Of a stretch of 64,000 bases of DNA, positions 22,643 to 49,549 are shown in pieces (the first letter of the stretch is position 1; every line of letters starts with the position of its first letter). The position numbers were made by a program, and so were the translations under genes. The DNA comes from Nitzschia sp. pyKryTriq1 (lineage: Eukaryota > Bacillariophyta > Bacillariophyceae > Bacillariales > Bacillariaceae), in assembly GCA_956465555.1 (NCBI GenBank), contig OY101117.1:3100001-3164000 (forward strand), given 5' to 3'. The notes under the pieces were generated by a model. It was not told the DNA's origin and did no database searches. It saw only the letters and a list, made by a program, of their open reading frames with translations.

Positions 22643-23365
22643 GATGATGATGATGATGATGAGCGCGTTGGCATTCCCTCTCGTTGACAATTTTGCCCGC
22701 TTCTTGTAAATTATGATGTGGGCAGGTCGCGGGGAGATCCCGCCATGGGCGGGTCTTTGTTATCATCTGGGTTAGCCAGTGCAAGTCCCAGGTGCAGCTA
22801 CGTAGCGAGCACTTTCGATCATGAAGGGTCATTTGCCATTAGAGTAAGATACTTCATCATCATGATCGGTCATTTCCCCAAGGAGCGGCCGGTGCTTTCT
22901 GTATTTATGGAATCATCTTTGTACCAGGCAAGTGTCACGACTAACAGGGGGCTGTCCTCGCTCGCTGAGACAGGTGCCGCCGGTGTGTACCGGTACCAGT
23001 ACCGCTTCGAACGGTACGAGTACGGCACCGGTACAGTGGACACGTACCGGTACTGGTGGTACTGTACAGGAGACATATTCAATGAGAACCACGTATATGA
23101 AAACCAAGATAAAAACCACGCGATAACGCTAGTAGTAAAAAACCAAAAGACTCAACTGGCGGGAATTGAACCCCAACCTCCTAAGTAATAATAGTTTTCG
23201 TTTTGTCTGTGATCGGCTTTGGCACTCCTCTTTGCTTGGCAGGCGCCCTTTGCACATGGCTTCCCTGGTTCCCTGGCGCCTCCTCTTCTGACACGACTGC
23301 AATAGATACGGGATTCAATTCGTGATTTAAAGTAGACGAAATTAACGCCAATCGGATCGCCCGCC

Positions 23366-35025: not shown

Positions 35026-35947
35026 GGCGGCGCCAGCCAGTGATGGAAGAGGAAAGCGGCCCTCGTTCGTTTTACCAGAGGCGAAACTATGGAAAATAGG
35101 GAGATGTGGTTTTGGCTTGGTGGAGAGAAGAGACGAGGCATTTATTCATTTTTCACCCGTACTCTAGTCGGTCGACTGTATGGAATCGGGGAAGGATCCT
35201 CTTGCAGTTCGACAGGTCTATGTATAGCTACCACCACTACGAAGTACTACTATTACCACATCTAGATCACTATTTCAACGGAACTATCAGAAACGTCGTC
35301 GTGGGTGAACCAGCAGTTGGGCAGCATGCAAGCAAACAGACACCATAATTGCCTCTGCAACCCCTCTCGTATATCGGTGGACCGCTGGTTCTACCTCTCT
35401 ACTAGTACTACAACACGACAAGTAGCAGTGAGACCAAATGCTTGAGATTTTGCTAACAACTACACATACTGCCTGCATGATATACCCCTGTAAATTCAAA
35501 ATACGATACTGCTCTCTAGTAGACTATCTACTACTATACATGAGAGAGCAGAGAGGGACGATGCTGGTAAAAACGTAGTAGACAACTGGTGTATCTATTA
35601 CTACTTCTTGATTCGTCTTTGGCGATCATGGCGGTATTGATCCTTGATGCATTGGGGATGACTACTACTGTAGTACTGTCTCTCAGCTATCGTCAAGAAA
35701 GTAGTGCTAAAATATATTGTGAACTCTTGGCGCGGTGCACTACCATACCGTACCGATACTGTAGAACTCCGGGTCTCAACAAGCAAAAAGTACGCGGCAG
35801 CTACAGTACTAGAGAGGTAGACTCTCTCCTACCGGGTAGTACGGCACTACTCTCTACTGGTAGAGTAGAGCGGGTAGTAGTAGTACTGTAGAGATGATAT
35901 TGGTAGAATGTAGAATACTAAGAGCAAAAGAGAAAAAATAGCAGGCA
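35026..35947. other. Intergenic
   Basis: No gene supported. CTAGTA/TAGTAC words recur around 35400, 35515-35540 and 35800-35890. A T run just downstream of the tRNA gene (minus strand, near 35932-35938) would serve as its Pol III terminator. Confidence 0.5.
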
Positions 35948-35948
35948 A

Positions 35949-36021
35949 GCTTGATCGCGGAGTCGAACCACGGACCTCCTCATTACTAATGAGGTGCTCT
36001 AACCAACTGAGCTAAACAAGC
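35949..36021 (-). tRNA. tRNA-Thr (AGU)
   Basis: The minus strand folds as a full cloverleaf of 73 nt. The acceptor stem is GCTTGTT with ATCAAGC (one T-T mismatch); the D arm is GCTC...GAGC; the anticodon arm is CCTCA-TTAGTAA-TGAGG with anticodon AGT; the variable loop is AGGTC; the T arm is CGTGG-TTCGACT-CCGCG. No intron. A- and B-box promoter sequences are in place (TAGCTCAGTTGG, GGTTCGACTCC) and a T run follows downstream. The CCA end is not encoded, as expected for a nuclear gene. The RNase P gene begins about 490 bp away on the other strand. Confidence 0.95.
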
Positions 36022-36508
36022 CGAGCTGAGGGATGTGGTTCTCGCAAATATATAAAGTGAATTATTATTTGTAGTTTTAACTGTCATCCTTCCGGGGCGC
36101 AAATCCTTTCGGACTCGCGGGGAAGCGTTAAATCAAGTTCATGCAAATACTTAAACGGACACGTCACGAAGCGCTACTGTACTTTAACCCAGGTACTAGC
36201 AGGTACCTGGTACGCGCTGTACCGGTACTGTACAGGTGTGTACGGTTCAGTACCAGGTACAAGTACCCGGTCTCGCGCTATTTATCATCCCACGTTTATT
36301 GGCGCTACCGCAGTACCAGTACCGGTAAAAGGTACAGTAAAGCACTCTGCTCTTGCGAAGCAGTACGAGAATACTCTACCGTGCGTACGTACCGGTACTG
36401 TACAAGTATGCACTCGTACAGTGGTACCTCTATCTAGTACTGGATTCTGAAGAAATAGCTCGGCTTCTGCTTCACGCCAGACGCCAGAGGCATTTCATCA
36501 TCACATAA
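36022..36508. other. Intergenic
   Basis: Between the tRNA gene and the divergent RNase P gene; 36160-36440 is dense in GTACCGGTAC-type words. No gene supported. Confidence 0.5.
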
Positions 36509-47525: not shown

Positions 47526-47898
47526 GGTTGTCGATGGATGATGAAAGGGAATTCAAAAAGTGATTTAATTATGATATCTATCGTGAAAATGACTGATGGT
47601 AGCGAGGTTGCTTCGGCAGCCACAGACGATGCTCTGACCCTGCTGGCCAAGCAATGCATGCATCGGGCATCGGCCCAATAGACAACGCCCGCCCCGCATG
47701 CATGCATGGCGCGCGAAGGGCGAGGAACGAGGCCAGCGTCCGGATCGAGCGGGTCGGATTCCGGCCGGCGGCGGTACGCCCAATCTACCGGTCGTAGGGG
47801 ACTGTACCGGCACAGTACGTACCCCAGGTACCCTCTAGAAAACCAGGTACTTGGACTGTACCGGTACAGTACAGTACCAGTACTCTACAAGTACAGTA
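47526..47898. other. Intergenic
   Basis: RanBP1 5' flank, then a GTAC tract (47805-47898) containing a 16-bp perfect palindrome at 47855-47870. The TRIM element inserted directly into the end of this tract. Confidence 0.5.
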
Positions 47899-47902
47899 CT
47901 TG

Positions 47903-48103
47903 TGCAATACACAGGACACGGCACAAGACAGTCTTTAAGACATTCCCCACTCCTCTGAATAAGAGAGCTCCAAATGCCGCAATGGCTAAAGGCTAACGCA
48001 CAGAGTGTGAGGCCGTGGGTTCGAGACCGAACCTCAACCCCCCTTTTTCAGAGCACATCCCGGCTGAAGGCCAGACGTGACTCCTGACTGCATGCATAGT
48101 GCA
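47903..48103 (+). repeat. 5' LTR of the TRIM
   Basis: 201 bp. Carries a Pol III-like internal promoter: A-box-like TGGCTAAAGG at 47983-47992, exact B box GGTTCGAGACC at 48018-48028, and a T5 terminator at 48044-48048. Confidence 0.85.
47983..48048 (+). promoter_or_regulatory. tRNA-like Pol III promoter inside the LTR
   Basis: The A-box-like and B-box sequences are 25 bp apart, as in tRNA genes, and the T run follows 15 bp after the B box. The segment does not fold as a complete tRNA because the acceptor stem has no partner. It is repeated in the 3' LTR. Confidence 0.6.
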
Positions 48104-48393
48104 TTATGAATTCATAGCACAAAAATCAACGTACGAACAAACCCAACGCGAAGGTTCGCGCAATTGACTAATCCGAACAGCAAAAAGCCCCTGACAAGGG
48201 CAATAATAACAAGAAGACAAAAGAACAACAAGAGCTTAGATAAGCCCTATCTGTGCGCCGTAGAGCCACTCAACAATCCACCATTAAACAACCCAATTCG
48301 GGTCCAAAAGATAAGCCCCATTGAAGTGTGCCGTAGCGCCGTAAAAATAACAACCACTAAAAACAATAATCATAAAATAACACGCTAGCGAAA

Positions 48394-48532
48394 CATTGGG
48401 AGGAGTTCCGTATGGAAGCCTCAAGAGGTAGCAGTGCTTCTCGACCAACTAACCTACTATAACAAGCATTGGGAGGAGTTCCGTACGGAAGCCTCAAGAG
48501 GTAGCAGTGCTTCTCGACCAACCAACCTACTA
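48394..48532. repeat. Tandem duplication inside the TRIM
   Basis: Two copies of about 66 bp starting CATTGGGAGGAGTTCCGTA at 48394 and 48467 (73-bp period), almost identical. Confidence 0.85.
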
Positions 48533-49110
48533 ATAATAACAACCATAAACAAAAATCATCGCAATATACCGACGGCCTGATCACCCGCACGGCATAATTG
48601 CAACACACGCCCACAGTAGCAGAAGGGCACTACAAACTCGGGGGAGAAAAAGAAAAATCCCACCCTTCCCGCCCAGAGATTGAGGCGCAAAAACCAGCAC
48701 ATAATAACTCGGAGGAGCGCAGTTTCCCCACCACTACCGACCGCCCCCAGTGAAGGGCACATACACACAAGAACAAGCAATAAGTGGAAGAGCGAGCAGC
48801 GCCCACCCGCCCACACCGAATACGGGCATATCAACAACATAAAGTAGCGTACGACCGCACCTTAACAAATAAAAACACAACTTCAACACGACCCGAAGCG
48901 CCAAGAATGGCCGGGAAAAAAATACACTTCGAGGCGAAGCCCGACAATTCAAGAGCGCGCGCGGCTCGTACTGCAGTGTGTAATGGTTACTATGACGTGA
49001 AGCGTCGGCCCTCTGACCACGCACGCCTGCAAAAGACCACGCCCGCCTGGCAATAAAAACAACTAACAACTGAAACAAGGCATCTTAGTGAGAAATGTCT
49101 TGGGGGAGAG

Positions 49111-49307
49111 TGCAATACACAGGACACGGCACAAGACAGTCTGACATTCCCCACTCCTCTGAATAAGAGAGCTCCAAATGCCGCAATGGCTAAAGGCTAA
49201 CGCACAGAGTGTGAGGCCGTGGGTTCGAGACCGAACCTCAACCCCCCTTTTTCAGAGCACATCCCGGCTGAAGGCCAGACGTGACTCCTGACTGCATGCA
49301 TAGTGCA
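49111..49307 (+). repeat. 3' LTR of the TRIM
   Basis: 197 bp, nearly identical to the 5' LTR. The same A-box-like (49187-49196), B-box (49222-49232) and T-run (49248-49252) sequences are present. Confidence 0.85.
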
Positions 49308-49549
49308 CTTGTACTCGGCCCTCCACGTGGCAAGTGGAGCAGCCGTACTACATTGCCAATACCACTAAAGCTCACGCTTTGACAACACTCATCTACCTTC
49401 TCAACACATCACAGACTTGCCTGGTGAAGACGGATTCAAAAAACCTCTTACTACAGAGGCGGTAGAGTAGTGGGAAGTTTTCCGGAGTTGTATTTTTGGT
49501 CCTCGGCGCTGCACCGTAGGATTCCTACGGACCACTCCATAGCTCAGCC

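Follow-up and report, generated by a model that had tools for sequence, protein, structure and literature searches.

How can an LTR element that encodes no recognised protein be transcribed, copied and spread through a genome? The question is raised by a locus at positions 47903-49307 of the window, i.e., of the whole stretch of 64,000 nucleotides analysed here. The original prediction described this locus as a TRIM element, each LTR of which holds a tRNA-like Pol III promoter, and regarded such a promoter in an alga as an invention parallel to that of the plant Cassandra elements. The analysis reported here makes it probable, in our judgement, that the locus is a member of a non-autonomous LTR retrotransposon family which has moved recently, has a tRNA-derived type 2 Pol III promoter in its LTRs, and works in the manner of Helenus and Cassandra. 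The structure of the family, the nature of the boxes in its LTRs, and the way in which its RNA may be made and reverse transcribed are considered in turn.

Structure and copies of the element

The coordinates of the element stand as they were first given, and the sequence between them is that of a non-autonomous LTR element with TG...CA ends (Table 1). The two LTRs of this copy differ solely by a gap of 4 bp. Matching LTRs, a polypurine tract, a target duplication and the lack of a protein had been predicted, and all of these were borne out, the last of them with a Pfam comparison that covered six of 18 open stretches. These 18 stretches of at least 40 codons lie on both strands of the internal region. 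For the six that were compared with Pfam, no match rose above the cut-off, and two weak matches had E values of 0.08 and 0.13. The longest internal open stretch varies in both position and length from copy to copy. The 16-mer across the junction of polypurine tract and LTR is exact in 13 of 13 full-length loci.

In the tandem units of 69 nt (48391-48532), the same two hairpins are predicted in each unit, and a packaging or dimer signal is a possible role for them. GTAC/CAGTAC palindromic repeats are clustered at positions 47793-47910 of the window, adjoining the insertion point.

Table 1. Features of the LTR element and their positions in the window
Feature	Position	Strand	Remark
Target-site duplication CTTG, left	47899..47902		exact, 4 bp
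5' LTR, 201 bp, TG...CA	47903..48103	+	at least 35 genomic matches to the LTR
A-box candidate 1, TGCCGCAATGG	47975..47985	+	43 nt before B box, one mismatch
A-box candidate 2, TGGCTAAAGGC	47983..47993	+	35 nt before B box, one mismatch
B box GGTTCGAGACC	48018..48028	+	exact; no variable column in the rows spanning it
T5 run, Pol III terminator-like	48044..48048	+	no variable column
Internal region	48104..49110	+	1007 bp, A 37%, T 15%, without recognised protein
Perfect 12-nt palindrome TATGAATTCATA	48105..48116	+	at the place of the primer-binding site
69-nt tandem unit, copy 1	48391..48459	+	predicted to form hairpins
69-nt tandem unit, copy 2	48464..48532	+	96% identical to copy 1
Polypurine tract GGGGGAGAG	49102..49110	+	adjoins the 3' LTR
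3' LTR, 197 bp	49111..49307	+	4-bp deletion near its start relative to the 5' LTR
A-box candidate 1, 3' LTR	49179..49189	+	consensus scan
A-box candidate 2, 3' LTR	49187..49197	+	consensus scan
B box GGTTCGAGACC, 3' LTR	49222..49232	+	exact
T5 run, 3' LTR	49248..49252	+	T-run scan
Target-site duplication CTTG, right	49308..49311		exact, 4 bp

The search for copies covered the element's own genome (40.65 Mb in 20 contigs), and the copy counts are a lower bound. Genes for Ycf4, PsaL and ThiG lie on a 123.5-kb contig of this genome, which is a plastid, and a chlorophyll-binding protein is encoded in the window itself. The gene content is taken to indicate a red-lineage alga, most probably a diatom. 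At least 35 matches to the LTR were found, namely 26 in 13 full-length loci, three complete solo LTRs and six partial ones. Uninterrupted copies, 12 in number, span 1405-1437 bp; the remaining full-length locus, L036, contains an interruption, and its 3' LTR is truncated. Exact 4-bp duplications flank 11 of the 13 full-length loci and two of the three complete solo LTRs, the third solo LTR (L040) being without one. The two full-length loci outside these 11 are the interrupted L036 and the minus-strand copy of L037, where three of the four bases agree. Further copies with the same ends and with target duplications, for which the original prediction had advised a search, are thus present in the genome. 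L037 (C14:1174850-1178956) consists of two full-length copies in opposite orientation, with about 260 bp between them. An exact 21-mer scan of viral contigs found no copy of the element.

The LTR pair is without any difference in 11 of the 13 loci (L036 being compared over the shared part only), and the plus-strand copy of L037 has one substitution between its LTRs. As differences within the pairs are nearly absent, the movement of the family is recent, which agrees with what had been proposed from the LTRs of the window copy.

The flanks of the window copy are equal to those of a copy on contig C1 (L032) at 500 of 500 bases on one side and 499 of 500 on the other. These flanks, together with two further anchors common to the window and C1, mark the two copies as a single insertion that was duplicated along with its surroundings; the 13 full-length loci are therefore 12 insertions. 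The three anchors are positions 1-1500 of the window (98% against C1), the sequence beside 47903-49307 (99.9%) and the tRNA-Thr gene (35947-36022), and they are collinear with C1 from position 4240272 onwards, over about 47 kb. Their collinearity suggests a segmental duplication, as far as a comparison of the anchors alone can indicate.

The promoter-like block in the LTRs

An A-box-like sequence, an exact B box and a T5 run at tRNA-like spacing had been predicted for each LTR. The B box stands, as does the T5 run, which in each LTR begins 26 nt after the first base of the B box; the A box is less clear, there being two imperfect candidates which overlap each other. For scoring, the A-box consensus TRGYNNARNNG was used. 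Among 19 nuclear tRNA genes of the genome, the spacing between A and B box is 42-45 in 17, the script having misread the remaining two, and the spacing of candidate 1 (43) falls in this range. Candidate 1 has two variable columns, one at the Y position and the other at an N position of the consensus, and candidate 2 is altered in one of 32 rows, which is that of the solo LTR L045.

No gap occurs between the A and the B box in 32 of the 35 LTR rows, i.e., in those that span both boxes. The spacing is thus constant among the copies, and neither of the outcomes that were to refute the prediction, a lack of further copies with these ends or a spacing that differs between copies, was obtained. This constancy has little power, since the family is so young: 27 of the 201 reference columns of the LTR alignment are variable, and 11 invariant B-box columns would be met by chance with a P of 0.196.

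It is quite improbable that the boxes are a chance resemblance inside an ordinary small non-autonomous LTR element. In 60 simulated sequences, the geometry of A box, B box and T4 had a frequency of 0.05 per 64 kb, with a maximum of one. The same scan of the window itself gave four B boxes, of which two belong to the LTRs and one to the tRNA-Thr gene; the fourth, at 23172, is taken for a chance match. The LTR was also aligned with 44 distinct tRNA genes of the same genome, organellar ones included. The best local alignment scores 38, with the nuclear tRNA-Arg TCT, and falls to 22 when the B box is masked. A score of 38 was reached by none of 300 shuffled LTRs, but five of 600 random segments of the window match tRNAs equally well. 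In a fixed tRNA register, A-box candidate 1 scores 28, a value that a single position of the window reaches among the 32,162 that start with T; candidate 2 scores 30, the background having been run for the score of candidate 1 alone. For a chance resemblance speak the imperfection of both A-box candidates, the silence of ARAGORN and Rfam, neither of which called a tRNA on the block, and the youth of the family, whose copies are alike mostly by common ancestry. The block in each LTR is likely a tRNA-derived promoter, and a tRNA is not likely to be its product.

Two more definite identities were tried and rejected. A tRNA gene proper is called by neither ARAGORN nor Rfam, and it is also opposed by T-stem positions 48016 and 48030, which, as read from the alignment, vary without restored pairs. 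A 5S-type promoter was dismissed because no 5S family match was obtained at E up to 10. The predicted RNA fold is not exceptional, with z from -1.2 to -1.7.

A possible route of transcription

According to the reading preferred here, TFIIIC would bind the A and B boxes of the 5' LTR, and Pol III would begin transcription some 10-20 bp before the A box. Rounds halted at the first T5 run would give a short RNA of about 85 nt. Some rounds would leak past this run and end at the T5 run of the 3' LTR. The RNA from such leaky rounds would have the same tRNA-like block at both of its ends, and strand transfer would use this block as its R repeat. An autonomous LTR retrotransposon would then lend the proteins that copy the RNA and integrate it.

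The distribution of T runs bears directly on this route. On the sense strand of all 12 uninterrupted copies, the two T5 runs are the only runs of four or more T, and the two additional runs of the interrupted copy (L036) both lie within its insert. Of 402 strand readings of the window, each of 1.2 kb and overlapping with others, only four are free of such runs. The internal region is without T4 runs owing to its low T content (15%); an avoidance beyond composition was not significant in this region (P 0.50, dinucleotide shuffles).

It may instead be Pol II that makes the genomic RNA, the block being an independent small Pol III gene or a TFIIIC-binding site within the LTR. We consider this unlikely, but it is a serious rival, because Pol III should in most rounds get no further than the 5' LTR. 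A T5 run is of ordinary terminator length here, as the first run of four or more T after the nuclear tRNA genes is T5 in eight and T4 in five, i.e., T4-T5 in 13 of 19; the T5 run of the 5' LTR should thus halt Pol III after about 85 nt. Moreover, a 163-bp LTR of Blackbeard, an element of the CoDi1 lineage in P. tricornutum, suffices as a reporter promoter (PMC2806351), so that the 201-bp LTR found here could hold a Pol II promoter as well. Against Pol II stands the scarcity of T on the sense strand, where none of the 12 uninterrupted copies has a T4 run between its two T5 runs; this fits Pol III transcription from LTR to LTR, whereas two Copia coding regions of the same genome carry 2.2 and 3.8 runs of four or more T per kb. 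Type-2 Pol III promoter units are also present in or near the LTRs of BLV and foamy virus, where Pol III makes a small RNA and the genome is transcribed by Pol II; these viruses are protein-coding. Finally, the block could be a fossil SINE that was inserted in an ancestral LTR and has lost its use as a promoter. This overlaps with Pol II transcription of the genome, and the probabilities given to the two are not exclusive; we hold it to be very improbable. LTRs of this kind arise by SINE insertion, as Kojima proposes (PMC10886601), but no SINE with the same head was found, and the 34 block matches listed (best candidates, E up to 10) are all places of the LTR family.

Known designs, helper elements and primer sites

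TRIMs with tRNA-derived blocks in their LTRs have been named Helenus by Kojima (2024, PMC10886601), who also proposed TRIMp3 as the name of TRIMs that possess a Pol III promoter and argued for several origins of Helenus. Their sources, as described there, are fungi, animals and Selaginella, and their lengths are 311-1263 bp, the survey having screened for TRIMs of less than 1000 bp. With Helenus, the element described here shares the tRNA-like A and B box sequence in both LTRs, the polypurine tract, the non-autonomous nature and the GGTTC in box B. The animal members have 4-bp duplications, as does the element here, and most Helenus families, too, have a block that is no functional tRNA. It differs in being 1405-1437 bp long, against at most 1263 bp, and in having a 12-nt palindrome in place of a recognised tRNA-complementary primer-binding site. 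Further, most Helenus A boxes contain TRGCY and YGG (PMC10886601), whereas neither A-box candidate here has both. Since the element is longer than Helenus, and the limit of 1000 bp belongs to the screen and not to the mechanism, it is termed Helenus-like and not Helenus. The term denotes a shared design and is not a claim of common descent. Of the assignment to TRIMs, the non-autonomous LTR element is retained, and the size does not agree with the TRIMs of less than 1000 bp that were screened (PMC10886601).

The Cassandra elements of plants are alike in that their LTR holds both a promoter and a terminator of the Pol III type. Their transcripts are described as reaching from one 5S block, in the 5' LTR, to the other, in the 3' LTR, and they are the sole TRIM lineage in which Pol III transcription has been validated to date (PMC10886601). 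The Cassandra block is derived from 5S rRNA, unlike the one described here. Thus, the proposed parallel to Cassandra is upheld with respect to a tRNA-type block but not with respect to novelty, as the kind has already been published under Helenus and TRIMp3 (PMC10886601). What would be new is a Helenus-like design in an alga, and in a longer form; the design itself has been known since 2024. The words diatom and stramenopile are absent from the main text of the Helenus paper (PMC10886601), and among the literature matches listed for TRIM or Helenus reports from diatoms and stramenopiles, none is from a diatom. Pol III-promoter LTR elements would, by the preferred reading, extend beyond fungi, animals and plants, which fits repeated independent origins. 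As the family is young and small, the transcription of an LTR element by Pol III becomes testable in an alga.

The proteins of the route proposed above would have to come from a helper. Searched by shared sequence, an autonomous partner was not found, the best E value being 0.35 in a comparison with the Copia elements L082 and L083 and the Gypsy stretch L084 (L085 and L086 were left out). Searches with LTR, polypurine tract and primer-binding site likewise found no other intact family in the genome. The Copia elements L083, L085 and L086 have target duplications of 6 bp, read by eye as AGAGTA, GGACCG and CCCACT, against 4 bp in the element. One Gypsy element has a 4-bp duplication, GATT (also by eye), together with unusual LTR ends and a TGG-type primer-binding site. 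A 4-bp duplication is made by Blackbeard of P. tricornutum as well, which is of the CoDi1 lineage (PMC2806351). A helper of the Gypsy type therefore fits by the length of the duplication, and one of the Copia type fits by the palindrome.

This palindrome, TATGAATTCATA, is intact in 11 of the 12 uninterrupted copies. The 60 nt that follow the 5' LTR contain no TGG, and no complement of more than 6 nt was found to any of 58 host tRNA entries (44 distinct, organellar included), an incomplete set. A tRNA half-molecule as primer was rejected, its matches being of 6 nt at most; eleven tRNA matches have this length, among them TCATAA from a Met anticodon loop. Self-priming from the LTR, of the Tf1 type, was rejected too, the longest complement being one of 5 nt, which is reached by 456 of 500 shuffles.

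Four Copia elements, all with reverse-transcriptase matches in long open frames, were read for their primer sites. Two of them have a perfect 12-nt palindrome directly after the 5' LTR: CGCTTCGAAGCG in L083 (C9:1380300-1389300) and TACCGATCGGTA in L085 (C10:1498600-1505600). The background amounts to 45 such palindromes in the 64-kb window, or 0.0007 per position, and three palindromes at the primer place are therefore unlikely by chance. Their presence in the element and in two Copia elements raises the question of how reverse transcription starts. In the fungal GalEa Copia elements, a palindrome known as the Conserved Hairpin Site replaces the tRNA-complementary primer-binding site (PMC5445492), and its place is that of the palindromes of the element, L083 and L085. 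Unlike the element, GalEa encodes proteins, and a further, complementary copy of the sequence follows in it 12-41 bp downstream (PMC5445492), whereas the best downstream 12-mer here matches at six of 12 positions. An LTR-to-LTR Pol III RNA with a leaky T5, primed by its self-complementary palindrome as an RNA dimer or hairpin, through a device common to Copia elements of this genome, is conceivable but quite improbable. The Copia elements L082 (C5) and L086 (C6) have a primer-binding site in common, GCTTCCTCTGCGC, which complements 13 nt in the region of the D arm of initiator tRNA-Met (L081, C16), and this complementarity suggests that a short 5' tRNA fragment may act as the primer in these two.
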